From Alphaproteobacteria bacterium MarineAlpha5_Bin7 (GTDB taxonomy: Bacteria > Pseudomonadota > Alphaproteobacteria > HIMB59 > GCA-002718135), in NCBI GenBank assembly GCA_002938195.1, contig PTKX01000006.1:1-55534 (forward strand): a DNA stretch of 55,534 bases, written 5' to 3'. This document shows, piece after piece, positions 34,098-49,918 of this stretch. How positions within the stretch are numbered: position 1 is the stretch's first letter; each line of letters begins with the position of its first letter. Position numbers and translations under genes: made by a program. The notes below the pieces were generated by a model. That model was given only the letters and a program-made list of their open reading frames with translations. It made no database searches and was not told where the DNA came from.

Positions 34098-35204
34098 ATG
34101 AAAATAGTAAATTCTTGGAATGAATGGGATCCTCTAAAGCACGTAATTGTTGGTAAAGCTGATAATTGTTGCATACCTCCTCCTGAACCAGCTACTGATC
34201 CTAAAATTCCAAAGGATAGCGATATGAAAGGAATGCATGGACCGCGTCCACATGATACTGTTGATAAAGCAAATGAACAGCTTGATGGTTTAGCAAATAT
34301 ATTAAAAAAAAGAGGTATTAAGGTAGATAGACCAACACCTCTAGATTTTAATCAAAAAATTGCTACCCCTGATTGGGAAATTGGCTCAATGTTTGGGTGT
34401 ATGCCTCCACGCGATGTAATATTAACTTTAGGCAATGAAATGTTAGAGGCAACAATGTCTTATCGCTCAAGGTGGTTTGAATATTTGTGCTATCGTCCTT
34501 TACTCCAAAAATATTTTGATGAAGATCCTGAAATGAAATGGGAGTCAGCTCCAAAACCAAGATTAACAGAAAAATCTTACAGAACAAACTATCTTAATGA
34601 AGGTATTTCTGACGAACAAAGATTAGAAATGGTCAAAAGAAAAGAATTTGTAACAACAGAAGAAGAACCTTTATTTGATGCAGCTGATATTTTGAGAATG
34701 GGTAAGGATCTATTTATACAAAATGGTTTTACAACAAACCTTAAGGGTGCAAATTGGATACAAAGACATTTTAAAAGTCACCGGGTTCATATTTTAAATT
34801 TTCCTGGAGATATGTATCCAATTCATATTGATGCAACATTTACACCTATTAAACCAGGATTAATTATCAATAATGCGAGCAGACAATTACCTGAAGATCA
34901 GAAAAAAATATTTTATGACAATGATTGGGAAATAGTAGATGCAGCTCAACCAGCTCATAATGAACCACCACCTCTTTGTTATTCTAGTGTTTGGTTGAGC
35001 ATGAATGTGTTGGTAATAGATCCAAAAACAGTGTGTGTTGAGGCTAGTGAAGTTTATCAGTCTGAACAATTGGATAAATTAGGAATGGAAGTTATTCCTG
35101 TGCCATTTAGAGATGCATATCCATTTGGTGGAGCTCTGCATTGCGCTACTACCGATGTTTATAGAGATGGTAAATGTGAAGATTATTTTCCGAATCAATC
35201 ATGA
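34098..35204 (+). CDS. Amidinotransferase of the arginine:glycine amidinotransferase family
   Basis: 368-residue enzyme expected to move an amidino group from arginine to an amine, or the reverse. The whole length follows the vertebrate AGAT pattern: NSWNEWDPLKHVIVGKA at the start, GNEMLEATMSYRSRWFEY, and a catalytic triad matching AGAT: Asp197 (FDAADILR), His243 (PIHIDATF) and Cys349 (GGALHCATTD). The residue after the cysteine is Ala, where AGAT has Trp, so the acceptor may not be glycine. GGAAG precedes the ATG. First gene of a 12-gene array; the end overlaps eutA by 4 bases. Confidence 0.87.
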   Translation: MKIVNSWNEWDPLKHVIVGKADNCCIPPPEPATDPKIPKDSDMKGMHGPRPHDTVDKANEQLDGLANILKKRGIKVDRPTPLDFNQKIATPDWEIGSMFGCMPPRDVILTLGNEMLEATMSYRSRWFEYLCYRPLLQKYFDEDPEMKWESAPKPRLTEKSYRTNYLNEGISDEQRLEMVKRKEFVTTEEEPLFDAADILRMGKDLFIQNGFTTNLKGANWIQRHFKSHRVHILNFPGDMYPIHIDATFTPIKPGLIINNASRQLPEDQKKIFYDNDWEIVDAAQPAHNEPPPLCYSSVWLSMNVLVIDPKTVCVEASEVYQSEQLDKLGMEVIPVPFRDAYPFGGALHCATTDVYRDGKCEDYFPNQS

Positions 35205-35950
35205 ATAATTTTATTCAAAAAGATTTATCTCCTACTTTTAACGAAATAGTTAACCCAAGAATTGGCGTTATAACTCTTTCAACAGATTTTACTATAGAAC
35301 AAGATTTTAGAAAGGTATGTCATGGTATTGATTTAGATATCTTCTTTAATAGAATACCTTTTAACAACCCATTAAATCATGAAAATTATCTAAAGATGGC
35401 TGAACATATTCCAGAGATAACAGAACAAATATTACCTAAACAAAAAGTGGATGTAATAGCATATGGCTGTACTTCAGGAACAATTGCAATTGGAGAAGAG
35501 TTTATAACAAGTCAGATACATAAAAAAAAACCAGGTGCCTTGGTTACTACGCCGATAACTGCTGCATTAAAAGCATTTAAAAAATTAAATTTAAAAAAAA
35601 TTGCTGTTTTGACACCTTATCCTACAAACGTCAATTTAACTGTCTTTAATTATTTGGAGCAAAACAATTTAGAAGTAGATTCATTTAATTCTTTTAATTT
35701 GAATTATGACTCAGAAATTGCAAAAGTAAGTCCTGCAAGTCTTTTGGATGGTATTGATAAAATCAATCTAGAAAATGTTGATGGTCTGTTTGTTTCGTGT
35801 ACAGCTCTCAAAATATTAGAAATACTTGAAAAAGTTGAACAAAAATTCAATACTACAGTCATCTCTAGCAACCAGGCAATAATATGGGATTGTTTAAGAC
35901 TTTCAAATATCAATAACAAAATAAATGGTTATGGTAAATTGTTTCAATAA
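35201..35950 (+). CDS. eutA: EutA-like protein (maleate isomerase / Asp-Glu racemase fold)
   Basis: 249 residues of the Asp/Glu racemase superfamily. Both catalytic cysteines are present, Cys90 in YGCTSGT and Cys200 in SCTALK, each in the typical small-residue loop. In hydroxyectoine-utilising alphaproteobacteria eutA precedes eutB and eutC in this order, which is what is seen here, so the EutA name rests on fold plus order. The reaction it performs in that pathway is only proposed in the literature. Confidence 0.82.
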   Translation: MNNFIQKDLSPTFNEIVNPRIGVITLSTDFTIEQDFRKVCHGIDLDIFFNRIPFNNPLNHENYLKMAEHIPEITEQILPKQKVDVIAYGCTSGTIAIGEEFITSQIHKKKPGALVTTPITAALKAFKKLNLKKIAVLTPYPTNVNLTVFNYLEQNNLEVDSFNSFNLNYDSEIAKVSPASLLDGIDKINLENVDGLFVSCTALKILEILEKVEQKFNTTVISSNQAIIWDCLRLSNINNKINGYGKLFQ

Positions 35951-35961
35951 AATTTAATATA

Positions 35962-36912
35962 ATGATCTCATTGGATAGAATTAAAGAAGCGCACAAAAAA
36001 ATTATACCTTATATCAATCATACTCCATTGATACATTCTGATTTTTTGTCTCAAAATAGAAATGTTAGATTAAAATTAGAATCACTTCAAAAAACTGGAT
36101 CTTTTAAATTACGGGGAGCATTAAATAAATTATTATCACTTTCAGATGAACAAAAAGATCGGGGGGTTATAGCTGTTTCTACAGGAAATCATGGTAAAGG
36201 TGTGGCCTATGCTTCCAGTTTATTGGGAATTAAATCCACTATATACATGTCATCTATGGTTCCAAAATATAGGAAAGAGGCAATTCAAGCTTTGGGAGCC
36301 AATGTTGAGATTGTAGGAAAAAATAGTGATGAAGCTGATTTATATGCAAAAAAAATATCTATAAAAGAAAATATTAAACTTATACATCCTTTTGATGATG
36401 AAGATATAATTGCAGGACAGGGAACAATAGGTTTAGAAATGATTAAAGATTTTCCTGATGTAGACACTGTAATTATACCTACATCTGGCGGAGGTTTGAT
36501 AGGAGGAATTGCTTTGGCTTTAAAATTACAAAAACCTAATATTAAAGTTATTGGAGTCTCTATGAAAAGAGGGCCTTCTATGTATGAAAGTTTAAAACTT
36601 GGAAAACCTGTTGATGTTGAAGAATTAGAAACTTTGGCTGATTGTTTAGGAGGAAGTATAGGGCAAGATAACAAGTATACCTTTAATATTGTCAAAAAAA
36701 CAATAGATGATTTTGTTTTAGTTGATGAAGATAAAATAGCAGAGGGTATCAAGTTAAATTTCTTGGAACATAAATTAGTAACTGAAGGCGCAGCCGCAAC
36801 CAGCATTATGGCAGTAAAAGAGAATTTATCCACACATATAGGAGAAAATGTTATTTGTTTGATTTGCGGAGGTAATATTGAATCTAAATTATTTACAAAA
36901 TTAGTTTCATGA
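35962..36912 (+). CDS. eutB: EutB-like threonine dehydratase family enzyme
   Basis: 316-residue fold-type-II PLP enzyme. The PLP lysine is Lys49 in KTGSFKLRGA; STGNHGKGVAYAS and the glycine-rich phosphate loop TSGGGLIGGIALAL are intact. The segment LADCLGGSIGQDNKYTF matches my recollection of EutB rather than biosynthetic threonine dehydratase, and no regulatory ACT domain is present. EutB is thought to dehydrate hydroxyectoine or its derivative. It overlaps eutC by 4 bases. Confidence 0.83.
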   Translation: MISLDRIKEAHKKIIPYINHTPLIHSDFLSQNRNVRLKLESLQKTGSFKLRGALNKLLSLSDEQKDRGVIAVSTGNHGKGVAYASSLLGIKSTIYMSSMVPKYRKEAIQALGANVEIVGKNSDEADLYAKKISIKENIKLIHPFDDEDIIAGQGTIGLEMIKDFPDVDTVIIPTSGGGLIGGIALALKLQKPNIKVIGVSMKRGPSMYESLKLGKPVDVEELETLADCLGGSIGQDNKYTFNIVKKTIDDFVLVDEDKIAEGIKLNFLEHKLVTEGAAATSIMAVKENLSTHIGENVICLICGGNIESKLFTKLVS

Positions 36913-37889
36913 CAGTTATTTTAAGTTTAGATGAAATCAAAAAATGTATAGGTTTGGATAAACAACTTATACCTATAATTGAAGAGGCATTTAAAAATTT
37001 AGCTCAGGATAAAGTATCTATGCCACCTATTTTACGCCTTGATATAGAAGAATATCATGGGGAGTCTGATGTAAAGGCTGCATATATTCAAGGTTTGGAC
37101 AGTTATGCTATAAAAGTAGCATCTGGTTTTTTTAACAATCCAAAAATTGGCCTTCCTTCTAGCAATGGATTAATGATTTTATTAGACTCAAAAACTGGCG
37201 TTATAAAATCAATTTTATTGGATAAGGGATACTTGACTGATATTCGTACAGCAATCGCTGGAGCCATAGCAGCAAAATATTTATCAAATCCTGATTCTAA
37301 AAAAGTAGGAATAATAGGGGCGGGAATACAGGCTAAATTACAACTTGAAGCATTATCTTTAGTTAGAAATATAGATACAGCATTTATATGGGCAAGAAAA
37401 AAAGATAAGGTTTCTGAATTTATAGCAGATATTAAGAAGCTAAATATAAATATTCAAGCATGTCTTTTACCAGAAGAAGTAGTAAATCAATGTGAAATTC
37501 TTGTTACAACAACGCCCAGCAAATCTCCTTTAATAAAAAATGAATGGTTAAAGAAAGGTCTGCACATAACAGCAATGGGTTCTGATGCTGAACAAAAGAA
37601 TGAATTAGATCCTCTTATCATTAAGGATTGTGATCTCTATATTCCTGATAGTTTGTCTCAAACAAAAATATTAGGTGAATTAAATCATGCAATAAAAAAT
37701 AATCTTGTTTCGTCTAATCAGAATTATAATGAACTTGGAGAAGTTATTCTTGATCCTAGCTTAGGAAGAAAAAGAAAAGAAGATATAACTGTATGTGACT
37801 TGACTGGTACTGGAGTTCAAGATACTGCTATAGCAAGACAAACATATGAAATAGCTATGCATTTAAAATTAGGAACAAGTGTTGATTAA
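36909..37889 (+). CDS. eutC: EutC-like ornithine cyclodeaminase family enzyme
   Basis: 326-residue member of the ornithine cyclodeaminase / mu-crystallin family. A Rossmann motif VGIIGAGIQAKLQLEAL follows the N-terminal substrate domain with KVASGFFNNPKIGLPS; later TAMGSDAEQKNELDP and SQTKILGELNHAI are typical of the EutC branch. EutC is proposed to reduce the intermediate formed by EutB. True ornithine cyclodeaminase (ornithine to proline) is an alternative that would also fit the amidinotransferase in the operon, which could release ornithine. Confidence 0.83.
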   Translation: MTVILSLDEIKKCIGLDKQLIPIIEEAFKNLAQDKVSMPPILRLDIEEYHGESDVKAAYIQGLDSYAIKVASGFFNNPKIGLPSSNGLMILLDSKTGVIKSILLDKGYLTDIRTAIAGAIAAKYLSNPDSKKVGIIGAGIQAKLQLEALSLVRNIDTAFIWARKKDKVSEFIADIKKLNINIQACLLPEEVVNQCEILVTTTPSKSPLIKNEWLKKGLHITAMGSDAEQKNELDPLIIKDCDLYIPDSLSQTKILGELNHAIKNNLVSSNQNYNELGEVILDPSLGRKRKEDITVCDLTGTGVQDTAIARQTYEIAMHLKLGTSVD

Positions 37890-37892
37890 GTT

Positions 37893-39335
37893 ATGAATGA
37901 ATCAATTATTAATAAAACATCTGAATATTTTAAAAAAAATGGTGTAGTTTTGCCTACTATCTCAGAACTTTGCGAACCTCATTCAATAAATGAAGAAATA
38001 AAAAATAAACTAAAATCCGTCAATAAGAATGAAATCAATCCTTTAAATTTATTTAGAGTACATTGGTATAATAATTTAAATCATTCAGGTTTTTCAAAAG
38101 TACCTGAACATATTGTGCTACCAAGTGAATTTACTGGAGTGGAAGCAAAGATAATTATTAATATTGGAAGATTATTTCCATTAATAACTGCACATAAAGT
38201 GCTTGCAGCTTATGGATGTTTATTACCAAGAATTTTAAATGGTACATTTGATTATGAAAATCATAAAGCTGTTTGGCCCTCAACTGGTAATTATTGTAGA
38301 GGAGGAGTCGCTATTTCAAGGATACTTGGATTTAAAAGTGTTGCAATTTTACCTGAAGGAATGAGTAGAGAACGTTTTAACTGGTTAGAAAAATGGGTTG
38401 AGGATAAAAATGATATAATTAAAACAGCTGGCACAGAAAGTAATGTTAAGGAAATATATGATGCTTGCAACCAATTACAAAAAGACTCAAAAAATGATAT
38501 TATAAATCAATTTGATGAATATTATAATTATGCTATTCATCGTGCAGTAACAGGACCTTCTTTTGAAAAATCTTTTTTAGAAGTAAAAGGTGACTCAAAT
38601 TTAAAACCAAGATTTTATGTTAGCGCCTCAGGATCAAGTGGAACACTTGCAGCTGGAGATTATTTAAAAGATAGACTAAATACTAAAATTGCTGTTGTTG
38701 AGGCAAAAGAATGTCCAACTTTGCTTTACAATGGCTATGGAGAACATAATATTCAAGGCATTGGTGACAAACACGTCCCATTAATTCATAATGTAATGAA
38801 TACTGATTTTGTTGTAGGCGTTTCTGATCAAGCCACAAATAATCTCAATATGATTTTTAACACAGATGAAGGTCAAAAATTTTTAATATCAAAAAAAGGT
38901 TTTGATATTAAATTTATTAACAGATTACCAGAATTTGGTTTCTCAGCTATTGCGAACATACTTGCTTCTATTAAATTAGCAAAATATATGAAATTAGGAC
39001 CTGATGATGCAATAATTACTGTAGCAACTGATGGTGCTGATTTATATTTTTCTGAATTAGAAAAAACAAAAAAAGAATTCCAAGGTATTTATGATGAAAT
39101 TGCATGCTCAGAAATATACGGTCAATATCTTAATGGCATTGCAATTGATGATACTTTAGAGCTTAATCAAAAAGACAAAGAAAGAATCTTCAATCTTGGA
39201 TACTATACTTGGGTAGAGCAACAAGGAGTAGATATTAATGATTTTGAAAAAAGAAGAAATATAAATTTTTGGAATGAACACTATAATTATATGCTTTCTC
39301 TTGATAATCAAATTAAAGAATTTAATAGTATTTAA
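37893..39335 (+). CDS. Fold-type-II PLP enzyme of unknown substrate (cysteine synthase-like)
   Basis: 480 residues, longer than cysteine synthase (about 310). The probable PLP lysine is Lys102 in ITAHKVLAA; WPSTGNYCRGGVAISRILG is the substrate/cofactor loop, and the phosphate-binding glycine loop is SASGSSGTLAAGDYL. An N-terminal extension of about 80 residues precedes the PLP domain, and a C-terminal part of about 70 residues has no feature I recognise. It sits between eutC and an M20 hydrolase with gaps of 3 and 5 bases, so it is surely part of the pathway; a beta-elimination or beta-replacement is likely, but no substrate can be named. Confidence 0.7.
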   Translation: MNESIINKTSEYFKKNGVVLPTISELCEPHSINEEIKNKLKSVNKNEINPLNLFRVHWYNNLNHSGFSKVPEHIVLPSEFTGVEAKIIINIGRLFPLITAHKVLAAYGCLLPRILNGTFDYENHKAVWPSTGNYCRGGVAISRILGFKSVAILPEGMSRERFNWLEKWVEDKNDIIKTAGTESNVKEIYDACNQLQKDSKNDIINQFDEYYNYAIHRAVTGPSFEKSFLEVKGDSNLKPRFYVSASGSSGTLAAGDYLKDRLNTKIAVVEAKECPTLLYNGYGEHNIQGIGDKHVPLIHNVMNTDFVVGVSDQATNNLNMIFNTDEGQKFLISKKGFDIKFINRLPEFGFSAIANILASIKLAKYMKLGPDDAIITVATDGADLYFSELEKTKKEFQGIYDEIACSEIYGQYLNGIAIDDTLELNQKDKERIFNLGYYTWVEQQGVDINDFEKRRNINFWNEHYNYMLSLDNQIKEFNSI

Positions 39336-39340
39336 CTTAA

Positions 39341-40495
39341 ATGAAGACAAAGAGTTTACATAATAAATTAGTAGAGTGGAGACATGATTTACACATGAAT
39401 CCACAAATAAGTTTTGAAGAAGAATATGCTTCGAATAAAGTAGCAAACTTATTAAAAGAATTTGGAATTGTGGTACATCCAGGTATAGCAAAAACTGGAG
39501 TAGTTGGAGTTTTAAAGAAAGGTAAAGGTAATAAGAGTATTGGCATTAGGGCAGATATAGACGCTTTACCAATTAATGAGAAAAATACATTTTCTTATAA
39601 ATCAAAAATTGAAAACAGAATGCATGCTTGTGGTCATGATGGACATACGACAATGTTACTTGGCGCTGCAAAATATTTAGCAGAGAATAGTAATTTTGAT
39701 GGAACTATTTATTTTATTTTTCAACCAGATGAAGAAAATTGTTTTGGCGCTAAAACAATGATTGAGGAAGGTTTATTCAGTAATTTTTCAATAGATGAAG
39801 TATATGCGATGCACAATATTCCAAATATGGAGTTAGGTTCATTTGGCACGCGTAAAGGAGCAATAACTGCTAGCGAAAATTTATTTGAAATCAATATTCA
39901 AGCAAAGGGTGGTCATGCGGCTTTACCACACATGGGGGTCGATGCAATAACTGTTGGCTCGCAAGTAGCTATAGCATTACAATCAATAGTTTCAAGAAAA
40001 CTCAATCCTGCAGATAATGGCATTGTTTCTATTACTGAATTTATTACTGATGGAAAAAAAAATGTATTACCTGGCAAAGTAAAAATAACAGGAGATGCCC
40101 GAGCTTTATCAAAAACAACTAACGAGATGATCGAAAAAAATATGAAACAGATTGTTAAAGGTGTATGTGAAGCTCATGAAGTTTCTTATGATGTAACATA
40201 TAAAACTTCTTGTCCAATAACTTTAAATGATTCAGAGCAGGCAGAATCAGCGACAAAGGCAGCAAAATCTTTACTAGGAGAGAAAAAAACTAATGGAAAT
40301 ATTGAACCAAGATTATTTTCTGAAGATTTTTCCATAATGTCTGCTGAAAAACCTGGATGTTTTGTTTTGATGGGCAATGGAACAAAAGGCTCTAATGCAA
40401 AACCATTGCATGCAGCAGATTATGACTTTAATGATGAATTATTGGTAATAGGTTCCTCTTATTGGGTGGAATTGGCAGAACAACAATTAAAATAA
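39341..40495 (+). CDS. M20 family amidohydrolase (N-acyl-amino-acid deacylase type)
   Basis: 384-residue zinc/manganese hydrolase of the hippurate hydrolase/IAA-amino-acid hydrolase branch. Metal-site residues are visible: Cys97 and His99 in HACGHDGHTTM, Glu131/Glu132 in FQPDEEN, His in YAMHNIP, and the C-terminal FSEDFS and LHAADYDFND. No signal peptide, so cytoplasmic. In ectoine catabolism the ring-opened N-acetyl-diaminobutyrate needs a deacetylase (EutE/DoeB, another fold); this enzyme occupies a comparable place and could do that job, which is inference. Confidence 0.85.
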   Translation: MKTKSLHNKLVEWRHDLHMNPQISFEEEYASNKVANLLKEFGIVVHPGIAKTGVVGVLKKGKGNKSIGIRADIDALPINEKNTFSYKSKIENRMHACGHDGHTTMLLGAAKYLAENSNFDGTIYFIFQPDEENCFGAKTMIEEGLFSNFSIDEVYAMHNIPNMELGSFGTRKGAITASENLFEINIQAKGGHAALPHMGVDAITVGSQVAIALQSIVSRKLNPADNGIVSITEFITDGKKNVLPGKVKITGDARALSKTTNEMIEKNMKQIVKGVCEAHEVSYDVTYKTSCPITLNDSEQAESATKAAKSLLGEKKTNGNIEPRLFSEDFSIMSAEKPGCFVLMGNGTKGSNAKPLHAADYDFNDELLVIGSSYWVELAEQQLK

Positions 40496-40516
40496 TATTA
40501 TTATAAGAGAAATTTA

Positions 40517-41665
40517 ATGTTTAAGAAAAATTTACTTAAATTACAAAATAGTATGAAAGAAAATAACATTGACCTCGCAATAATAACAGATGATGATTCT
40601 TTATATTATTTTACTGGATATTATAATTTTCTTCACATGGATTTTTTTCGTCCCACAATATTACTTGTTCCTAAAGATGATGAAAGCACTTTAATTACCC
40701 CTTTATTAGACGTTCTTTTAATAGAAAAGGATTGTCCGATTAAAAAAATTAAAACTTGGAATGATGGCATAGGCAATGAATGGAGAGAATATTTGCCTAA
40801 ATTTATAAAAGAAAACAAAAAAATAGCATGTGAAAAATTTAAGATTAACGCTACTGTTAGTAATTATTTAAACGATTTACTTAGTGGCAAAGATTTAAAA
40901 GATATAACGCCTATAATAAGCAATATTCGAATGATAAAATCTGAAGAGGAGTTAAAAATTGCAAGACATGCAGGTGAGGTAGCTTTGGCTATGATGGAGG
41001 GTGGCAAAAAGGCTTTAGGTCATAATGTACCTGAGTATGAAGTTGCTATCGCAACATCTCAAGCTGGAACTAGAAAAGCTGCAGAACTTTTGGAAAAACA
41101 TTATGATAATAAGACTATGTCTCCTAATATTCATTTTTTGCAAGTTATGTCTTCAGGCCATGATTTACCAAAAACTCATCATCGTGCTTCAACAAAATTA
41201 ATTAAAAAAGGAGACCCAGTATTTCTTTGCTTTTGCGGATCTACAAATTTTCATAGATTTAAATTGGGATTTGATCGTGTTTTTTGGATCGAAGAAGTTA
41301 GAGAAGACTCGCAAATAAAAGCATTCGAAGTCGCTGTAAAATCTCAAAAAGCAGCACTTAGTGTACTTCGACCAGGAATAACCGCAGAAGAAGTGCATGA
41401 AGCTTATGCAGAGACTATACAAGAAGAAGGTTATCCTTATCCAACTTTTCGCTGTGGCCGTGCTACAGGTTTTAGTGTTTTAGAAGAGCCACAATTGATT
41501 GTTGGAAATAAAACTATATTGCAGCCAGGAATGGTTTTTGCAGTAGATGGAGGAGCAAGTACCGATAATTTTAGAGCTCAAGTTGGAGATAGTTTTATTA
41601 TTACAGAAAATGGTTATGAACAAATTACTCATCATTCCAAAGAGATTAAAGATTTAATTGTTTGA
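40517..41665 (+). CDS. Creatinase-like M24 (pita-bread fold) protein without metal ligands
   Basis: 382 residues with the N-terminal creatinase domain and C-terminal M24 fold. The residues that bind the two metals in M24 peptidases are replaced: the first Asp by Cys (LCFCG), the His by Ala (GRATGFS) and the last Glu by Gly (QVGDSF). A histidine (His221) aligns with the catalytic His of creatinase, a metal-independent relative that splits creatine to urea and sarcosine. A cleavage of a C-N bond in a guanidino or cyclic amidine substrate is therefore plausible. EutD/DoeA (ectoine hydrolase) is a related family, but its N-terminal motifs are not evident here. Confidence 0.72.
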   Translation: MFKKNLLKLQNSMKENNIDLAIITDDDSLYYFTGYYNFLHMDFFRPTILLVPKDDESTLITPLLDVLLIEKDCPIKKIKTWNDGIGNEWREYLPKFIKENKKIACEKFKINATVSNYLNDLLSGKDLKDITPIISNIRMIKSEEELKIARHAGEVALAMMEGGKKALGHNVPEYEVAIATSQAGTRKAAELLEKHYDNKTMSPNIHFLQVMSSGHDLPKTHHRASTKLIKKGDPVFLCFCGSTNFHRFKLGFDRVFWIEEVREDSQIKAFEVAVKSQKAALSVLRPGITAEEVHEAYAETIQEEGYPYPTFRCGRATGFSVLEEPQLIVGNKTILQPGMVFAVDGGASTDNFRAQVGDSFIITENGYEQITHHSKEIKDLIV

Positions 41666-41668
41666 TTA

Positions 41669-42694
41669 ATGCAAAATATAAAAGTTTATAACGCACATTG
41701 TTGTGGTGAAATCGGTGATGTTGTCATAGGAATGGAAAATTTTGATTTTAAATCACCAAAAGAAGGGTCGGCACATTTATTCAAAGATAAATCTTGGAGA
41801 AATTTTTTTTTAAATGAACCTAGAGGCGGAGTATTTAAACATTGTAATATAATTGTAAAACCTTCAGATCCAGATGCTGATGCGGGATTTATTATTTTAG
41901 AGCCCGAAGATAACCCTCCTATGAGTGGTTCAAACACTATATGTGTCACAACCGTTTTGCTTGAAAAAAAAATATTAAAAATGCAATATCCTTTTACTTC
42001 ATTAACTCTTGAGGTTCCAGGGGGATTGATTAAAGTTATTGCAGAATGTGAAAATAACAAAGTAAAGAATGTTTCTTTGACTAATTTACCTTCTTTCGTT
42101 GATAAAGTTGATGTTACTCTTAAAACTTCAAATTATGGCAACATAATTGTTAGTACCGCTTATGGAGGCGATAGCTTTTTGCTATGCGAAGCAAGAGATT
42201 TTAATTTGGAAATAGAACCAAAAAATGCTAAAAATTTTGTAAATATTGCTGATGAACTATTAAATGAAGCTAATAAACAAATTGGATTTCAACACCCTAG
42301 TATTTCAGAATTAAATTATATTTCTTTTTGTCAATTTATGGATCCATTAAAAATTGACAATCAAGGAAATAAAAATGCAAAAAATACCGTTGTCATAAGA
42401 CCAGGCAAATTAGACAGGTCGCCTTGTGGCACAGGAACATCAGCAAGATTAGCATTGCTAAGAAATAAAAATGAAATTAAAATTGGAGAAAAAATAATAT
42501 CTCAATCAATTATTGGATCTACTTTTGAAGCATTTATTGAAGATGAAATTATTGAATCGTTAAGTGCTATGATCAAACCTAACATTAAAGGTAGTGCTTA
42601 TATAACCGGAGAACAAATTCTCTATAAAAATGACGATGATCCCTTTCCAGAAGGATACAAAATAAATGATACATGGCCAGATAGTCACAAATAA
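41669..42694 (+). CDS. Proline racemase superfamily protein with a Ser/Cys catalytic pair
   Basis: 341 residues. The superfamily includes proline racemase, 4-hydroxyproline 2-epimerase and trans-3-hydroxyproline dehydratase. The first catalytic position is Ser86 (PPMSGSNTI) instead of cysteine; the second is Cys253 (DRSPCGTGTSA). Loss of the first cysteine is seen in dehydratases and some epimerases of the family, so a simple proline racemase is unlikely. It lies 3 bases after the M24 gene and 47 before soxB. A cyclic imino acid as intermediate of the pathway is suggested. Confidence 0.82.
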   Translation: MQNIKVYNAHCCGEIGDVVIGMENFDFKSPKEGSAHLFKDKSWRNFFLNEPRGGVFKHCNIIVKPSDPDADAGFIILEPEDNPPMSGSNTICVTTVLLEKKILKMQYPFTSLTLEVPGGLIKVIAECENNKVKNVSLTNLPSFVDKVDVTLKTSNYGNIIVSTAYGGDSFLLCEARDFNLEIEPKNAKNFVNIADELLNEANKQIGFQHPSISELNYISFCQFMDPLKIDNQGNKNAKNTVVIRPGKLDRSPCGTGTSARLALLRNKNEIKIGEKIISQSIIGSTFEAFIEDEIIESLSAMIKPNIKGSAYITGEQILYKNDDDPFPEGYKINDTWPDSHK

Positions 42695-42741
42695 ATATTG
42701 TTATATTTGCTTATTTTTTTGAATAAATATAGAAGAAGGTT

Positions 42742-44007
42742 ATGACAAGATTTAATGCCTGGAATGTAATTAAAAATGGATTAAATGACCAAACTGGTTG
42801 GGATAGGCAATGGAGAGATCCAGAACCCAAAAAAGAGTATGAGATTGTCATTGTAGGCGGTGGCATACATGGTTTAGCAACTTCTTATTATCTAGCAAAA
42901 AACTTCAATATTAAAAATATTGCAGTTCTTGAAAAAGGTTGGATAGGAGGTGGCAATGCAGGAAGAAACACAACTATTATACGATCTAATTATATGATGC
43001 CAGGTAGTCATCAATTTTATGAGCATTCATTAAAGTTATGGGAAAACTTGAGTCATGATTTAAATTATAATGTAATGTTTAGCCAAAGAGCGCATGTATC
43101 ACTTTTTCATAGCCCTCCTGCTAGAGATGTTGCCGCAAGAAGATATAACATTATGAAACTTCATGGCACTGATGCAGAACTATGGGATATTAATAAGCTG
43201 AAAAAAAATATACCATATTTAAATTATCATAATGCAAGATTCCCAATACTAGGAGCAGCAGTTCAAAATAGAGCTGGAAATGCTAGACATGACGCAGTTG
43301 TTTGGGGATATGCAAGGGCAGCAGATCAATTAGGAGTAGATATTCTTCAAAACTGCGAAGTGACTAACATTTTAAGAACAAATAGCAATATAGATGGATT
43401 AGAAACAACAAGAGGAATTATAAAAGCTAAAAAAATTGGCTTTGCTGTTGCAGGTAACACATCAAGACTCTGGGAAATGACGGGTCTTGGAAATCTCCCA
43501 ATTGAGTCTCATAAACTACAAGCATTTGTTACTGAGTCAATTAAGCCATTAATAGATCAAGTTATCGTATATGGAGTTGGCGGCGCACATTTTTATATAT
43601 CACAATCTGATAAGGGTAGTTTAGTTTTTGGAGGTGATCTTGATTGGTACAAATCTTATGCACAAAGAGGTAATTTACCAATAGTTCAAGATTGTGCAGA
43701 GGCAGCAATGGCAATTCTTCCTTGTTTAGGAAGGATTAGAATAGTCAGGCATTGGGCTGGTGTATGTGACATGTCTATGGACGGAACTTTTTTTATTTGC
43801 AATACTCCTATAAAGAATTTGTTTTTAAATGCTGGCTGGAACTACGGTGGATTCAAGGCTGGTCCAGCTTCTGGATGGTATTTTGCAGATTTAATTGCTA
43901 ATGAACAACCTAATCAAATCATCAAAAATCATAATCTAGAACGTTTTGAAAAAGGTATTAACTTAGATGAGCGAGGAGCTGGACCTGATCCTAAATTACA
44001 TGGATAA
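42742..44007 (+). CDS. soxB: Sarcosine oxidase beta subunit
   Basis: 421-residue FAD-dependent subunit of the heterotetrameric enzyme oxidising sarcosine to glycine, with the methyl passed to tetrahydrofolate and H2O2 formed. The Rossmann motif VIVGGGIHGLAT is at 36-47, GNAGRNTTIIRSNYM follows, and the C-terminal GWNYGGFKAGPASGWYFA closes the FAD site. The N-terminal 30 residues with TGWDRQWRDPEPK are typical of SoxB. AGAAGG precedes the ATG. Gene order soxB-soxD-soxA-soxG is standard. Confidence 0.95.
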   Translation: MTRFNAWNVIKNGLNDQTGWDRQWRDPEPKKEYEIVIVGGGIHGLATSYYLAKNFNIKNIAVLEKGWIGGGNAGRNTTIIRSNYMMPGSHQFYEHSLKLWENLSHDLNYNVMFSQRAHVSLFHSPPARDVAARRYNIMKLHGTDAELWDINKLKKNIPYLNYHNARFPILGAAVQNRAGNARHDAVVWGYARAADQLGVDILQNCEVTNILRTNSNIDGLETTRGIIKAKKIGFAVAGNTSRLWEMTGLGNLPIESHKLQAFVTESIKPLIDQVIVYGVGGAHFYISQSDKGSLVFGGDLDWYKSYAQRGNLPIVQDCAEAAMAILPCLGRIRIVRHWAGVCDMSMDGTFFICNTPIKNLFLNAGWNYGGFKAGPASGWYFADLIANEQPNQIIKNHNLERFEKGINLDERGAGPDPKLHG

Positions 44008-44013
44008 TATAAT

Positions 44014-44304
44014 ATGATTAGAATTAAATGTCCTTATTGTGGAGAAAGAGATCATAGCGAATTTACCTATGGAAGTGACGCATCTATAGAATATCCAAAT
44101 CTAGAATCCAATGCAAAAGATTGGACTGAAGCTATTTTTTTTAGAAAAAATATTTATGGCAAACAAATAGAGACATGGCATCATACTAATGGTTGCAGAT
44201 TATGGTTAATCATTGAAAGATGTACAATAACTCATAAAATTTTTTCTATTAAACCTGCCCATCCAGAAATACACAAATTACTTAAAAATCAAAATAATAT
44301 ATGA
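44014..44304 (+). CDS. soxD: Sarcosine oxidase delta subunit
   Basis: 96-residue small subunit that binds zinc in the tetramer. The zinc ligands are visible as Cys6 and Cys9 (IKCPYCGERDHSEF) with a His and Cys in WHHTNGCRLW. Normal length for SoxD. It overlaps soxA by 4 bases. Confidence 0.94.
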   Translation: MIRIKCPYCGERDHSEFTYGSDASIEYPNLESNAKDWTEAIFFRKNIYGKQIETWHHTNGCRLWLIIERCTITHKIFSIKPAHPEIHKLLKNQNNI

Positions 44305-47279
44305 CTGCAAAAAGATTAAAAGATTACGGAAAAGTTAATCAAGATAAAATATTATCATTTACTTGGGAAAATAAAAAATATTTTGGTTACAAGGGCGATA
44401 GTTTGGCAGCATCTCTTTTAGCAAATAATATCAATATAATTGGAAGAAGTTTTAAATACCATCGTCCTAGAGGAATAATGTCTGCAGGAGTTGAAGAATC
44501 TGGAGCTCTGGTTACCATAGGTAAAAATGAATATACTGATCCAAATGTTAGGGCTACTTCTCAAGAGTTATATGAAGGTTTGATAGCATCGGGTCAAAAT
44601 GCATTTCCAAATGTTAATTTTGATCTTGGTTATATTAATAACTATCTAAGCCGTTTTTTTGCTGCGGGTTTTTACTATAAAACTTTTATGGGCTTACCAC
44701 CTTTTGAGTGGGGTAAAGGAACTAAGATTTGGATGATCTATGAAAAATTGATTAGAAAAGCAGCAGGGATGGGTAAAGCTTCTAAAATGCCAGATCCTGA
44801 CAAGTATGAGCACGCTAATGAATTTTGTGACGTACTTATTATTGGTTCAGGACCATCTGGAATAGCAGCAGCCGTTGAAGCGGCAAACAACAATCTAGAT
44901 GTTATACTTGTGGAACAAGATCATGTTATAGGAGGGAACTTACTTTCAAATTCAAACTTTGATTTTGAAGAAAAAAAATATTTTTTGCAAAAAGCTGGAA
45001 TTAAAGTGATGACGAGAACTACGGCTTTTGGTTTATATGATAATTGCGTAGCAGGTATGATCGAGAGAGTTAATGATCACTTTTTTTTACCAAAAAATAA
45101 TACTCCAAGACAGAGATTTTGGACAATTCGTTCAAAGCATATAATTTTAAGTACAGGTTCTTTGGAAAGACATATTGCTTTTAATAATAATGACATACCT
45201 GGAGTAATGACTGTTAATGCAGCTAGACATTATTTAAATAGATATGGAGTATTAGCAGGAGAAAAAATTATTATCTGTACCAATAATGATTCTGTATTTG
45301 AAACTTCGATATTATTATCTAAAGCTGGAGCTAAAGTAAAAGTATTTGATATTAGAGAAAAGATTGATGAAAACACAATAAAAAAACTTAATACCAACAA
45401 TGTTGAAATAGAGTTTAACAAAGCTCCATTAAACATTCAAGGAAACAAAAAAGTTGAAAGTATCGATATAGGAATAAAAGTGGGCAATAAATACAAAAAA
45501 GTTAACGAAGAAGAATGTGACTTGGTATTAATATCAGGAGGCTGGTCTCCGGTTATTCATCTTTTATCACATAGGGGTATAAAACCTAAATGGGATAAAG
45601 AAAATCTTTGCTTCTTACCTAGCCAATCTTCAGAACCTATAACAGTTGCAGGCTCCGCTGCAGGTATATGGAATAATGATGATTGTGAAGCTTCAGGTAT
45701 TGCCTCAGGATTAAAAGCGGCAAATGAAATTGGAATTAAAACCTCTGATTATTTTTTTCCTAAACAAGGAGGTTGGAAAAATCCTATATTTCCACTATTT
45801 GAAATAAAATCAAATCGATCAAGATCAAAAAGTTTTATAGATTTTCAGCATGACGTAACATCAGATGATATCAGGTTAGCCCATAGAGAAGGTTTTGTGT
45901 CAGTAGAGCACCTAAAAAGATATACAACTTTAGGAATGGCTAACGATCAAGGTAAAATGGGGAATATAATTGGATTATCAATAATGGCAGATTTATTACA
46001 GAAAGAAATTTCCGAAGTGGGTACCACGGTATTTAGACCACCTTATACACCTATATCAATTGGAGCGTTAGCAGGGAGAAATGTAAATAAACATTTCAGG
46101 CCATTAAGGGTTACACCATTGCATGATTGGAATTTAGAAAATGGTGCTAAAATGATAGAGACCGGGTTATATCAAAGACCTTGGTATTATCCAAAAAATA
46201 ATGAAAAATTGGCAGATGCGTATATTAGAGAGGCAAGCTCAGTAAGAAAAACAGTTGGATTATGCGATGTTACTTCTTTGGGGAAAATTTCAATACAAGG
46301 CCCTGATTCTACTATTTTTTTGAATAAGGTTTATAGCAATGCCTTTGCTAAGCTACCTATAAACAAAGCAAGATATGGTATTATGCTAAGAGATGATGGA
46401 TTGGTGATGGACGATGGAACTTCTTGGAGACTTTCTGAGAATGAATATTTTATGACTACATCTACAGCTCATGCTGCAAAGGTTATGTTATGGTTAGAGG
46501 AGTTATTACAAACTCGATGGCAAAACTTAAAAGTTCATGTAACTTCTGTTTCTGAAGAATGGGCGGCTGTATCAATTGCTGGACCAAAATCAAGAGATAC
46601 TCTTTCTTTGTGTGTTGAAGATCCTAATTTAATATCTAATGATAATTTGCCTTTTATGGGATTAACTCAAACTAAATTAAACAATGGTATACCTTGCAGA
46701 ATAGCTAGAATTAGTTTTTCAGGTGAGTTAGCTTTTGAAATTTATACCCCTTCTGATTTTGCATATAATATGATGAATATTCTTTGGGAAAGTGCAAAAA
46801 AATTTGATGGGTGTTTATATGGATTAGAAGCTTTGGGAGCACTAAGAATTGAAAAAGGTCATGTTACTGGAGCAGAATTAGACGGAAGAGTTACTATAGA
46901 GGATGTAGAATTGGGTAAAATGGCTTCTGATAAAAAATCATATATTGGCAGTGCAATGCAAAAAAGAGGAGTGTTAGCAGATAAAGATAGAGAAACTTTA
47001 GTGGGTATTTTTCCAAGAAATAAATCACAAACCTTTGATGCAGGAACTATTATTTGTAAAAAAAATGAAATTAAAGGATATGGAATAGGCAGAATTACTT
47101 CTGTAACTTATTCACCTGGATTAGGTCATTGGATTGGATTGGGATTCATAAAAGGCGGTTATACTGAGTGGAAAAACACAATTGTCGTTGGAGCAGATCC
47201 TGTTAGAAATAAGGAAATTGATTTAGAAATTGTTTCTCCTCACATGTTTGATCCCAAGGGGGAGAGATTACATGGTTGA
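44301..47279 (+). CDS. soxA: Sarcosine oxidase alpha subunit
   Basis: 992 residues, normal length. The N-terminal part has the ferredoxin-like segment FKYHRPRGIMSAG without iron-sulfur cysteines; a dinucleotide-binding domain starts near 177 (VLIIGSGPSGIAAA); the C-terminal third is a GcvT-like folate domain (from about 600), where the methylene group of sarcosine is transferred to tetrahydrofolate. The end overlaps soxG by 8 bases. Confidence 0.95.
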   Translation: MTAKRLKDYGKVNQDKILSFTWENKKYFGYKGDSLAASLLANNINIIGRSFKYHRPRGIMSAGVEESGALVTIGKNEYTDPNVRATSQELYEGLIASGQNAFPNVNFDLGYINNYLSRFFAAGFYYKTFMGLPPFEWGKGTKIWMIYEKLIRKAAGMGKASKMPDPDKYEHANEFCDVLIIGSGPSGIAAAVEAANNNLDVILVEQDHVIGGNLLSNSNFDFEEKKYFLQKAGIKVMTRTTAFGLYDNCVAGMIERVNDHFFLPKNNTPRQRFWTIRSKHIILSTGSLERHIAFNNNDIPGVMTVNAARHYLNRYGVLAGEKIIICTNNDSVFETSILLSKAGAKVKVFDIREKIDENTIKKLNTNNVEIEFNKAPLNIQGNKKVESIDIGIKVGNKYKKVNEEECDLVLISGGWSPVIHLLSHRGIKPKWDKENLCFLPSQSSEPITVAGSAAGIWNNDDCEASGIASGLKAANEIGIKTSDYFFPKQGGWKNPIFPLFEIKSNRSRSKSFIDFQHDVTSDDIRLAHREGFVSVEHLKRYTTLGMANDQGKMGNIIGLSIMADLLQKEISEVGTTVFRPPYTPISIGALAGRNVNKHFRPLRVTPLHDWNLENGAKMIETGLYQRPWYYPKNNEKLADAYIREASSVRKTVGLCDVTSLGKISIQGPDSTIFLNKVYSNAFAKLPINKARYGIMLRDDGLVMDDGTSWRLSENEYFMTTSTAHAAKVMLWLEELLQTRWQNLKVHVTSVSEEWAAVSIAGPKSRDTLSLCVEDPNLISNDNLPFMGLTQTKLNNGIPCRIARISFSGELAFEIYTPSDFAYNMMNILWESAKKFDGCLYGLEALGALRIEKGHVTGAELDGRVTIEDVELGKMASDKKSYIGSAMQKRGVLADKDRETLVGIFPRNKSQTFDAGTIICKKNEIKGYGIGRITSVTYSPGLGHWIGLGFIKGGYTEWKNTIVVGADPVRNKEIDLEIVSPHMFDPKGERLHG

Positions 47280-47832
47280 CAGAACTTCAGCTTTAGATAA
47301 AAATTATGAAATTGTTAAAAAAATCAATGATGAAAAAGTTAATCTTATATTTAACAGAAATATTAATTTACAGATTACACAAGTGGCAGCATGGCCCGAT
47401 ACAGTTTCAAAAGTTGAATTAATTATATCAAAATATTTAAAAATATTATCATTACCTAGATCAAATTTCGCTGAAGATAATGATTCTTTTGCTATAATGA
47501 GAGTAGAACCTCTTAAATGGTGGATTCTTGGTTCTGATATTCCTTTATTATCGACTGAAGAGGGAACTACATTAGATTTATCTCATTCATTCACGAATAT
47601 TCAAATATCTGGACCAAGTGCCAAATTATTTTTGAATAGGTTTTTACCTCTAGATTTAAGAGACAATTCATTTCCAATCAACAAAGTGGCCTCTTCAGCT
47701 ATACATCATGTTAGTGTAAAATTATGGCTTTCAAGAAATGGCTTTCAATTATTTATACCACGAGGCTATGCAATGTCATTGTGGGAAATTTTTCAAGAAT
47801 CAGCAACTCAATTTGGATATGAAATAAAGTAA
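47272..47832 (+). CDS. soxG: Sarcosine oxidase gamma subunit
   Basis: 186-residue fourth subunit, weakly conserved in the family; recognised by position after soxA and by motifs such as DLSHSFTNIQISGP and FPINKVASSAIHHVSVKLW. The frame extends upstream inside soxA to 47230, but ATG 47272 has a strong AAGGGGGAGAG ribosome-binding site 6 bases before it, so this start is preferred. The stop codon lies within the terminator stem. Confidence 0.9.
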   Translation: MVDRTSALDKNYEIVKKINDEKVNLIFNRNINLQITQVAAWPDTVSKVELIISKYLKILSLPRSNFAEDNDSFAIMRVEPLKWWILGSDIPLLSTEEGTTLDLSHSFTNIQISGPSAKLFLNRFLPLDLRDNSFPINKVASSAIHHVSVKLWLSRNGFQLFIPRGYAMSLWEIFQESATQFGYEIK

Positions 47833-47859
47833 CATTGCTGTTTAGCTTGTTACTTTTTT
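47826..47859 (+). terminator. Intrinsic terminator at the end of the amidinotransferase-to-soxG operon
   Basis: AAAGTAACA (47826-47834) pairs perfectly with TGTTACTTT (47848-47856), with an inner GCT/AGC helix and a GTTT loop, followed by a run of T to 47859. The stem contains the soxG stop codon. No other hairpin of this strength is seen between 34098 and here, so it probably closes the whole transcription unit. Confidence 0.75.
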
Positions 47860-47902
47860 ACGCAAACTAAATCGTATTATTTTCTAGCTATTTGGTGATT
47901 AT

Positions 47903-49051
47903 TTGTCTAGAGAACTTATCAATTTTTTTATGAAATCAAATCCTGAAATAACTTTTGGAACCAGAATAAGAAAATCCCCTTTTTTTGATTCTACAATAAA
48001 ATGGGGATGCAAGGCTTTTACAATATACAATAAAATGTACATGCCAACATACTATAAATCATTTGTTGAGGATTATTGGTCATTAGTGAATGATGTTACA
48101 TTATGGGATGTAGCAGGAGAAAGACAAGTTGAGATAACTGGAAAAGATGCTGAAAAATTTGTTGAATATATTACGCCAAGAGATATTTCTGCATGTAAAG
48201 TTGGTCAATGCATGTATATTTTGTTAACCGAAAAAGATGGAGGTATTGTAAATGATCCAGTTCTATTAAAATTAGATGAAAATCATTTTTGGTTATCAAT
48301 TGCTGATAGCGATGTATTATTATGGTGCTTAGGTATTGCTTCTTCAAATAGATTTGATGTTAAATTATCTGAGCCTGACGCTTCTCCATTATCACTACAA
48401 GGTCCAAAATCACCTGATGTTATGGCAAGAGTGTCAGGTGAATGGGTAAAAGGATTAAAATTTTTTAATTTTAAAAAATCTGTAATTAATGGAATACCTG
48501 TGATTATTGCAAGAAGTGGATGGAGTGGGGAACCTGGTTTCGAAATTTATTTATTAGACGGTTCTAGAGGAAATGAATTATGGGAAATAATTATGGAAGC
48601 TGGGAAAGATTATAAGATTGCCCCAGCTTGCCCTTCACAAATTAATAGGGTTGAGAGTGGAATGCTTTCATATGGTTCTGATATGACTCTACAGGAAAAT
48701 CCTTATGATGTTAGTTTAGGAAAATTTGTTAATATAGATAAAAAAGCCGATTTTTTATCTAAAGCGGCTTTAAGTAATATTAAACAAAAAGGAATTCTTA
48801 AAGAAATGGTAGGTGTAGAAATCATGGAAAAAACATCAGATGAATTTATTCGAGATCACTTGCCTATTTATGATGAAAAAAATGTTGTTGGTAAAATTAC
48901 ATCCAGCGTTTATTCTCCAAGACTAAAAAAAAATATAGGATTGGCAATTATAAATAAGGAGAACATAAATTCTAATAATCTTAGACTAGAGTATAGCGGA
49001 AAAAGTATAGAAATAAAAATTTCTCAATTACCTTTTCTTAGGAATAAATAG
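47903..49051 (+). CDS. DmdA-like / GcvT-fold tetrahydrofolate-dependent demethylase
   Basis: 382-residue aminomethyltransferase-fold protein. The pattern VTLWDVAGERQVEITG, ITPRDIS, NDPVLLKL, FWLSIADSDVLLWCLGIA, GEPGFEIY and RVESGMLSYGSDMT resembles DMSP demethylase DmdA of SAR11 more than glycine-cleavage GcvT. Starts with TTG at 47903, in a 70-base gap containing the soxG terminator and a TATTAT (47875-47880) that might be a -10. Candidate substrates: dimethylsulfoniopropionate or an N-methylated amine. True DmdA versus DmdA-like paralogue needs phylogeny. Confidence 0.72.
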   Translation: MSRELINFFMKSNPEITFGTRIRKSPFFDSTIKWGCKAFTIYNKMYMPTYYKSFVEDYWSLVNDVTLWDVAGERQVEITGKDAEKFVEYITPRDISACKVGQCMYILLTEKDGGIVNDPVLLKLDENHFWLSIADSDVLLWCLGIASSNRFDVKLSEPDASPLSLQGPKSPDVMARVSGEWVKGLKFFNFKKSVINGIPVIIARSGWSGEPGFEIYLLDGSRGNELWEIIMEAGKDYKIAPACPSQINRVESGMLSYGSDMTLQENPYDVSLGKFVNIDKKADFLSKAALSNIKQKGILKEMVGVEIMEKTSDEFIRDHLPIYDEKNVVGKITSSVYSPRLKKNIGLAIINKENINSNNLRLEYSGKSIEIKISQLPFLRNK

Positions 49052-49918
49052 TTGCCATTTAAAGATTATTTTTTAGCTATTAGTGTGCCTTTATTATGGG
49101 GAATTGGCATGGTGATAACTAAGCCTGGAATGGAATATTTTCCTCCAATGCTTATTAATGGTTTGCGCTGGGGTTTAACGGGCATCATTCTTGTTTGGTG
49201 GTTTCCTATACCCAAAGATTATTTATTTAAAATATTTCTGGTGTCTATTATTGCGTGTACAATTCAGTATTCTTTAACCTTTTCTGGCTTAAATATAATA
49301 GATGCTTCATCAGCAGTACTTTTTGTGCAATGTGAAGTGCCATTTGGTGTATTAATTGCATATTTATTTTTAAAAGAAAAACCCCATCTTAAAAATATTA
49401 TTGGCATAGCAATTGCCTTTATAGGTTTGCTTATTCTATCAGGCTCACCAAATCTTGAAGGAAAATACATCGGAGTAATTCTAGTTTTATCAGGAGCATT
49501 TACTTGGGCTTTGGGACAAATTTTAATTAAACCAATAAGTGAAAAAATAAATGGAATTGTTCTTACAGCATGGATAGGAGTGTTTGCGGGACCGCAATTA
49601 ATTATTTCATCACACTTAATAGAGGGAAATGTTTTTAACAACATTGTGAATGCTGATTATAGAGCTTGGCTTATAGTAATATATTTAGGATTACTTATGA
49701 ATTCTTTAGGATATAGTATTTGGTATTATGTTTTAGGAAAGTATGCGGTTCAAAAAATATTACCAGTAATGCTACTTCTTCCTGTAACTGGAGTTTTGAC
49801 AGCTATTATCTTCCTCGGAGAAAGACCTGATATTAAAGTGTTTATAGGTGGCTTTATTATTATATTAGGTGTTGCTTTGATCTTATTTGAAAAAATCAAA
49901 CTTAATCAAAAAATTTAA
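49052..49918 (+). CDS. EamA/DMT family transporter
   Basis: 288-residue membrane protein with about ten hydrophobic segments in two EamA repeats (ISVPLLWGIGMVITKPGMEY at the start, and SGAFTWALGQILIKPIS opening the second half). Family members export or import amino acids and other small metabolites. It starts with TTG directly after the preceding stop, so it is co-transcribed with the DmdA-like gene. The stop abuts the stop of the minus-strand DUF3726 gene. Substrate unknown. Confidence 0.87.
   Translation: MPFKDYFLAISVPLLWGIGMVITKPGMEYFPPMLINGLRWGLTGIILVWWFPIPKDYLFKIFLVSIIACTIQYSLTFSGLNIIDASSAVLFVQCEVPFGVLIAYLFLKEKPHLKNIIGIAIAFIGLLILSGSPNLEGKYIGVILVLSGAFTWALGQILIKPISEKINGIVLTAWIGVFAGPQLIISSHLIEGNVFNNIVNADYRAWLIVIYLGLLMNSLGYSIWYYVLGKYAVQKILPVMLLLPVTGVLTAIIFLGERPDIKVFIGGFIIILGVALILFEKIKLNQKI

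Follow-up and report, generated by a model that had tools for sequence, protein, structure and literature searches.

Twelve adjacent genes of Alphaproteobacteria bacterium MarineAlpha5_Bin7 (contig PTKX01000006.1) form a real and conserved operon that is related to the hydroxyectoine utilization clusters, with a lower half that is different. The window, by which we mean the whole 55,534-nucleotide stretch that was analysed, makes up a complete contig in an assembly of 1.23 Mb and 93% completeness. We propose, at a probability of roughly 0.45, that the twelve genes are a catabolic operon rebuilt from a hydroxyectoine utilization cluster and serving ectoine-like zwitterions such as cyclic amidines and guanidino acids, with a route that probably runs via diamino acids. 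We take the host group to be AEGEAN-169/HIMB59, following the label given in an earlier reading of the same DNA (the sequence-only reading). These are streamlined ocean bacteria, for the most part uncultured, and little is known of their nitrogen-rich diet.

The families of the twelve open reading frames were assigned by NCBIfam, Pfam and PDB searches, which backed those named in the sequence-only reading. The twelve genes, a candidate terminator and a divergent upstream gene are as follows.

34098..35204, + strand: glycine-amidinotransferase-like enzyme (AGAT family); human AGAT in the PDB at E 2.4e-85, no NCBIfam match
35201..35950, + strand: EutA-like racemase/isomerase; TIGR02990 212 bits, cutoff 318
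35962..36912, + strand: EutB-like pyridoxal phosphate (PLP) dehydratase; NF005680 384 bits, cutoff 413, BhcB only 213
36909..37889, + strand: EutC-like imine reductase; NF006141 456 bits, cutoff 408, and TIGR02992 424 bits, cutoff 471.65
37893..39335, + strand: PLP480, a PLP enzyme of fold type II with 480 amino acids; best NCBIfam match cysK, 75.7 bits, cutoff 351
39341..40495, + strand: M20 amidohydrolase, DoeB2-like; TIGR01891 326.6 bits, cutoff 153.75
40517..41665, + strand: M24-fold hydrolase in a clade of its own that lacks the metal ligands; the five ligand columns read C-D-R-D-G
41669..42694, + strand: proline-racemase family protein (ProR), nearest trans-3-hydroxyproline dehydratase; NF047722 409 bits, cutoff 550
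42742..44007, + strand: soxB-type subunit, putative N-methyl amino-acid dehydrogenase; TIGR01373 598 bits, cutoff 529, and clade placement
44014..44304, + strand: soxD-type subunit; PF04267 93.7 bits, cutoff 27, and TIGR01374 90.1 bits, cutoff 116.5
44301..47279, + strand: soxA-type subunit; TIGR01372 1146 bits, cutoff 1164
47272..47832, + strand: soxG-type subunit; TIGR01375 53.6 bits, cutoff 143.95
47826..47859, + strand: A/T-rich hairpin with a T-run, candidate terminator overlapping the soxG stop codon
32557..34008, - strand: divergent aldehyde dehydrogenase of succinate-semialdehyde type, candidate Ssd; TIGR01780 704.8 bits, cutoff 646.35

All twelve genes lie on the + strand (34098-47832), where neighbours either overlap by 4-8 bases or stand 3-47 bases apart. 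The strand, positions and spacing given in the sequence-only reading were all confirmed from the coordinates. The amidinotransferase gene overlaps eutA by 4 bases, 11 bases separate eutA from eutB, and eutB overlaps eutC by 4; gaps of 3, 5, 21, 3 and 47 bases follow eutC, PLP480, M20, M24 and ProR, respectively. A gap of 6 bases lies between soxB and soxD, soxD and soxA overlap by 4 bases, and soxA and soxG by 8 if the soxG start is the ATG at 47272.

The neighbourhoods of 20 relatives were fetched and the window genes were mapped onto each. The complete twelve-gene order was found in 16 of the 20, with identities of 44-88% in those 16 and soxG lowest; in the other four the stretch ends early (L026, L031), the order is interrupted after M20 (L024), or ProR is absent and the contig end is met (L038). 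When a genome collection was scanned with the fifth gene, PLP480, as the query, 401 relatives were obtained; among the best 80 of these, 40 loci carried all twelve genes in order, 68 had eutC or M20 beside the PLP gene, and in 12 the PLP gene was located elsewhere, outside the cluster. The twelve-gene order is not chance. The sequence-only reading had described a co-oriented, probably catabolic operon with conserved linkage and had pointed to gene order in relatives as a check; these counts support it, and within the family the homologues are not scattered without linkage. Its twelve-gene unit holds in the window, but many relatives conserve a larger unit, with EutD in 24 loci and a transporter insertion in four. 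In the window's family the amidinotransferase is present in 32 of 36 genomes, a count that includes the window genome, and in the sister family it is in none of 24. Class-wide, PLP480 was found in 12 of 385 genomes and AGAT in 11 of 385, with the window genome and one family member in both counts, and farther from the family the operon genes separate. Genome sizes among the relatives are only about 0.9-1.6 Mb; that so large a catabolic operon keeps its order in genomes this small suggests that the solute is important to these bacteria. Literature searches, made among open-licence papers, turned up no paper on this gene set, in keeping with the earlier statement that no described pathway of exactly this composition was known to that reader.

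The upper part of the operon is the part that resembles hydroxyectoine clusters. The genes eutA, eutB and eutC are adjacent in hydroxyectoine-cluster order, EutC scores above one of two curated cutoffs and has 52% identity to a plasmid EutC, and the best-scoring models for EutA and EutB are Eut models. In a 13-row tree with long branches the operon EutA groups with the EutA side, apart from the EutA-like partners of the M24 clade. Judged by these scores, the operon EutABC are real but divergent. The beta-hydroxyaspartate cycle was considered and rejected, as the scores of EutB and EutC against Eut models are far above those against Bhc models.

Like the eut genes, the surroundings of the operon tie it to hydroxyectoine. 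A gene for an EutD-type ectoine hydrolase was found 3' of soxG in 24 of the 80 loci, and in four of the 80 a BisC-type molybdoenzyme and EhuB are inserted between eutC and the PLP gene. In two of these (L117, L119) the reading frames of the insertion show a whole transporter, and in L119, where alone the subunits were scored, EhuA, EhuB, EhuC and EhuD are all above curated cutoffs with an Lrp-type gene among them. The BisC/TorA-like molybdoenzyme of the insertion (L117, L119) reached 910 bits against a cutoff of 1018 when scored in L119, and a similar enzyme lies upstream of the M24-eutBC genes in L047 and L049. The candidate Ssd, which would be the last enzyme of the ectoine route, is below the narrower PRK11241 cutoff (731 vs 828 bits). 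It occupies the same divergent place in 19 of the 20 fetched relatives, and PMC5924519 places an ssd-type gene likewise divergent beside the Sinorhizobium meliloti ectoine operon. EutD after soxG, the ectoine-type transporter insertion and the upstream Ssd together link the cluster to the hydroxyectoine pathway. In this genome the EutD (DoeA) homologue is outside the window, on contig C19 (454 bits, cutoff 613), and is 49-55% identical to the EutD proteins found after soxG; EutD matches at E 1e-50 occur in 18 of the 36 family genomes, none of them above the cutoff. In some related loci (e.g. L046, L048, L176) a DmdA-like gene comes after EutD, so that the window may have lost an EutD gene at this position. 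A second M24 adjoins the EutD-like gene of L136 (G000:C19:15615-17932); its five metal ligands are all present, and it has 40% identity to an M24 that adjoins a diaminopropionate ammonia-lyase on a Roseovarius plasmid. No EutE (DoeB) match was found in this assembly at E 1e-10, and across 60 genomes weak matches were seen in 4 and none above the cutoff. According to PMC5924519 and PMC13188858, reviewed ectoine clusters hold eutABCDE, asnC, ssd, atf and a transporter of the Ehu or Ueh type. By its own account PMC13188858 concentrated on matches with EutD, EutE and EutB, which would put clusters lacking EutE outside its target.

The M24 protein was called creatinase-like in the sequence-only reading, a name that did not survive comparison. 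By sequence, its nearest solved structures are Xaa-Pro peptidases (86 bits), creatinase (72) and DoeA (36), and it gave 57-68 bits against EutD/DoeA model cutoffs of 575-613. It has 24% identity to true creatinase; of what we take to be the creatinase active-site residues, located by motif, the FxRP arm and a His are kept and most other positions differ. At the ligand columns creatinase has N-E-H-E-H, a metal-type M24 protein D-D-H-E-E, and EutD E-(A/S/T)-Y-(I/M/Q)-(S/T). In a 22-row tree the protein sits in a 12-row clade (100/99), with C-D-R-D-G at these columns, apart from both EutD and creatinase; it is neither. Its AlphaFold2 model, with a predicted local distance difference test score (pLDDT) of 42, was too poor for use. 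Members of the clade adjoin an EutA-like gene in Roseovarius, Aminobacter, Rhizobium binae, Mesorhizobium AR07 and one further genome (G003), and in Paraburkholderia the EutA-like gene is one gene away. Genes of the sox type adjoin this pair in Roseovarius and Aminobacter, while in R. binae and Mesorhizobium they are no more than 9 kb away; none was found in the 9-kb flanks of the Paraburkholderia member, and neither partner was seen on the SC52 plasmid or in L171. On the Parasedimentitalea marina plasmid (L208) the M24 homologue aligns in two pieces with no annotated gene, and is possibly a decayed copy of an Ehu-LysR-M24 cluster.

Two plasmid clusters run parallel to the operon. On the Roseovarius pelagicus plasmid the M24, M20, SoxB and SoxA homologues are 59, 49, 73 and 57% identical to those of the operon, and EutA-like genes, EhuCDA, Lrp and an EhuB-like protein just below cutoff were also found; the Aminobacter SR38 plasmid carries a matching gene set. 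In both, an annotated diaminopropionate ammonia-lyase adjoins the M20 homologue (49-50% identical) in the place of PLP480, and that of R. pelagicus is above two of three model cutoffs. No EutB was found on plasmids at E 1e-80.

For PLP480 itself no NCBIfam model came near its cutoff, and Pfam PALP scored 35.6 bits against a cutoff of 35. Its AlphaFold2 model (pLDDT 78, predicted template modelling score 0.85) matches CysK, CBS, beta-cyanoalanine synthase and O-ureidoserine synthase with Z of 24-27 over about 300 residues, a modelled fold that places it in PLP fold type II. Outside the cluster PLP480 adjoins AGAT (L106), and it adjoins ureohydrolase-type genes in L112 and in three of ten distant loci (L139, L145, L146); two of these ureohydrolases were scored, that of L112 above and that of L139 below the agmatinase cutoff. 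With these neighbours, and with diaminopropionate ammonia-lyase in its place beside M20 on the plasmids, we propose by analogy that PLP480 may be a diamino- or guanidino-amino-acid lyase. In L105, L106 and L168, from marine bacteria with small genomes, a PhyH-type oxygenase and a MOSC-domain protein (by eye) adjoin PLP480 or lie close to AGAT, and in Afifella (L123) no trusted neighbour beyond PLP480 is common with the cluster. An OrtB-type thiolase was considered for PLP480 and dropped; no OrtB model was among the NCBIfam matches at E 1e-5. The M20 protein scored 312.6 bits on the DoeB2 model, below the cutoff of 550, and together with PLP480 it may replace missing steps of the hydroxyectoine pathway.

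The sox genes were also read differently before. It had been suggested that SoxBDAG burns sarcosine, which now seems unlikely, since the genome holds a second, higher-scoring SoxB over the model cutoff (707.6 bits on contig C38, against 597.7 for the operon copy) and the two are separately placed. The C38 gene adjoins two genes that by eye resemble folate genes. In a midpoint-rooted tree of 14 rows the operon copy is split from this canonical SoxB at 100/99 and groups with the SoxB of Roseovarius and Aminobacter SR38 (100/100), and on the operon's side are SoxB whose genes neighbour glnT and glutamate-synthase-family genes, which we read as N-methylglutamate (NMG) synthase. A Ruegeria TM1040 row on the same side had no such neighbours in the stretch seen, and L190 was placed there by eye. 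The operon soxBDAG is a paralogue, by this placement apparently nearer to N-methylglutamate dehydrogenase than to sarcosine oxidase, and its substrate is more likely to be something else than sarcosine. L190 (G036), of the sister family, has one SoxB set beside apparent NMG-synthase, flavin-monooxygenase and demethylase genes (by eye), an arrangement that is trimethylamine-type-like. N-Methylglutamate dehydrogenase (Mgd) takes part in homarine catabolism according to PMC13390433; homarine was provisionally set aside as a less likely substrate, as no ring-cleaving oxygenase was seen among the twelve genes. The ProR reading frame carries a Ser/Cys pair, presumably the catalytic pair of a trans-3-hydroxyproline dehydratase.

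In the amidinotransferase, the catalytic Cys/His/Asp and the arginine-site residues are conserved in alignment with human AGAT and the acceptor gate residues differ, so that the acceptor may be another than that of the human enzyme. Neither a creatinase nor a urease alpha was found in this genome, so that amidino transfer in the arginine-forming direction is the thriftier guess.

From the gene families, conserved order, paralogy and clade placement we infer all substrates, reaction directions and the order of steps as follows. The solute would be imported by an Ehu-type ABC transporter, as seen in some relatives, and its amidine or C-N bond would be cleaved by non-metal M24 hydrolases, namely EutD where present and the operon's own M24. 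M20 would then strip an N-acyl group in the stead of EutE, giving a free diamino acid; EutA, EutB and EutC would remove a beta-hydroxyl by inversion, dehydration and imine reduction; and PLP480 would eliminate ammonia from the diamino acid. The amidinotransferase might transfer amidino groups to ornithine, so that their nitrogen is retained as arginine in a genome where no urease was detected, the Sox-like complex might take an N-methyl from a non-sarcosine amino acid to folate, and the divergent Ssd would oxidize a semialdehyde.

Several observations weigh against this proposal. EutA, EutB and EutD are under their equivalog cutoffs, in 20 of the 80 loci the next conserved gene follows soxG without EutD, and a search for EhuB at E 1e-30 was negative in 58 of 60 genomes, among them this one (UehABC was not searched). 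The window's operon has no transaminase and no regulator. The M20 protein is as similar to the carboxypeptidase CpsA (314.4 bits, cutoff 500) as to DoeB2. In four of the ten distant loci PLP480 adjoins CoA-transferase-type genes (by eye; a single subunit in L143), and on two Rhizobiales plasmids it lies near sulfite-exporter genes, contexts that are not explained by diamino-acid chemistry. PLP480 was absent from the fetched stretches of six non-family genomes that have AGAT, and in G018 the cluster is split across two contigs. That genome (L174, L188) has two EutD-type genes, one of them directly after AGAT-eutA, beside an EhuB-like transporter (158 bits, cutoff 190.9).

Alternatively, the operon might be a cassette under shared regulation, in which modules that work independently (dehydroxylation of hydroxyectoine, dehydration of 3-hydroxyproline with EutC as the reductase, demethylation of N-methyl amino acids and guanidino-group transfer) share one transcript and serve no single pathway. 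Modules do part elsewhere: PLP480 stands with AGAT alone in L106, eutBC-PLP480-M20-M24-ProR-sox occurs without AGAT and eutA in the available stretch of L047 and L049, ProR is missing in 5 database loci that have M24 and soxB, and rhizobial plasmids have M24 and an EutA-like gene with sox genes some kilobases off. Against this, the order kept in half of the 80 loci and the small size of the genomes suggest joint use, and we regard the cassette as somewhat unlikely. More specific, and doubtful as a whole, is the proposal that a single marine solute is degraded, an N-methylated, beta-hydroxylated cyclic amidine or guanidine akin to hydroxyectoine. Here the metal-free M24 clade would work with the Mgd-like complex and PLP480 would be a diamino-acid (or guanidino-amino-acid) lyase, both undescribed enzymes; the amidinotransferase would salvage amidino nitrogen as arginine, and Roseovarius and Aminobacter would use this solute or one like it by means of their plasmid clusters.

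Degradation of creatine or guanidinoacetate, with M24 as creatinase, Sox for sarcosine and AGAT for guanidinoacetate, is the route closest to the sequence-only reading. Use of creatine, urea and sarcosine is predicted for an AEGEAN169 clade in PMC11366302, and urease alpha was found in 21 of the 36 family genomes. Six non-family genomes have AGAT at 70-73% identity, and in two of these, both single-contig (G264 and G353), a creatinase is directly beside AGAT, while in G436 it is about 0.3 kb away and divergent; the G353 protein scored 544 bits against the PDB creatinase, and the other two are 80% and 58% identical to it. A creatine-type metabolism is thus a real association of AGAT elsewhere. 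The three remaining non-family loci, however, showed no creatinase in the stretches seen, no creatinase homologue above 30% identity was found in 60 genomes, this genome showed no urease alpha, and the operon M24 and Sox are removed from their creatine-pathway counterparts as described above. After these searches the creatine route was rejected as the leading explanation and is, in our judgment, very improbable for this operon. An AGAT gene at 70% identity (L171, G359) adjoins a DmdA-like gene (45%), a loose link between both families, and the Photobacterium AGAT neighbourhood was uninformative. The family of G353 had PLP480 in none of 297 genomes, and loci titled Pelagibacteraceae (e.g. L105, L106, L108) may therefore belong elsewhere. 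Least probable of all is an ordinary hydroxyectoine operon with bystanders, as the eutABC, Ssd, EutD and EhuABCD links would allow, since in 40 loci all twelve genes remain linked whereas EutD and Ehu are variably present, and EutE was not found in this genome.

It was previously noted that the operon ends at a strong hairpin. In the structure 3' of soxG the outer stem is 9 bp long and includes two G-C pairs; there is also a six-T run, three T of which lie inside the stem. Its minimum free energy is -14.6 kcal/mol over 47820-47905, a region that takes in a second, weaker hairpin, with a z of -1.86 and 12 of 200 shuffles folding equally well; a plausible terminator of moderate stability stands, but "strong" was an overstatement. 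A terminator pattern scan, in which terminators (7) were no more numerous than in shuffled sequence (mean 6.2), did not list it, probably because the scan rule demands three G-C pairs. Downstream (47903-49918) lie a DmdA/GcvT-like gene (393 bits, cutoff 410 of the dimethylsulfoniopropionate demethylase model) and a DMT-family transporter.

The labels "creatinase", "sarcosine oxidase" and "ectoine utilisation" are annotation traps here and probably mislead, and the parallel plasmid clusters open the question to bench work, since Roseovarius and Aminobacter are available as isolates. Compared with known systems, the window cluster shares the eutA-eutB-eutC order and an adjoining Ssd-type gene with the ehuABCD-eutABCDE and uehABC-eutABCDE-asnC-ssd-atf clusters of S. 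meliloti and R. pomeroyi, and its relatives share EutD and, in a few, EhuABCD with an Lrp-type gene; it differs in showing no eutE, atf or enuR and in adding AGAT, PLP480, M20, the separate M24 clade, ProR and soxBDAG. The Roseovarius and Aminobacter SR38 clusters, known from their annotation, share the M24 clade, M20, EutA-like genes, the SoxBDAG clade, an Ehu-type transporter, Lrp and a PLP lyase of fold type II. In them, however, diaminopropionate ammonia-lyase replaces PLP480, the stretches seen have no AGAT, EutC or ProR match, and the sole EutB match (26%) is the ammonia-lyase itself. Diaminopropionate ammonia-lyase and the cysteine synthase family resemble PLP480 in fold and, on the plasmids, in the place beside M20, but with its 480 amino acids PLP480 is longer at both ends than the matched folds. 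N-Methylglutamate dehydrogenase (MgdABCD) has the same subunit order and a neighbouring position in the SoxB tree, whereas the window operon lacks glutamine-synthetase-type and NMG-synthase genes and its SoxB is in its own 100/100 clade with the two plasmids. With creatinase and the heterotetrameric sarcosine oxidase the operon has in common that an M24-fold protein is encoded together with soxBDAG, with the FxRP arm and His kept, and it departs from them in most M24 active-site residues and in a sox set that is a paralogue of another clade.

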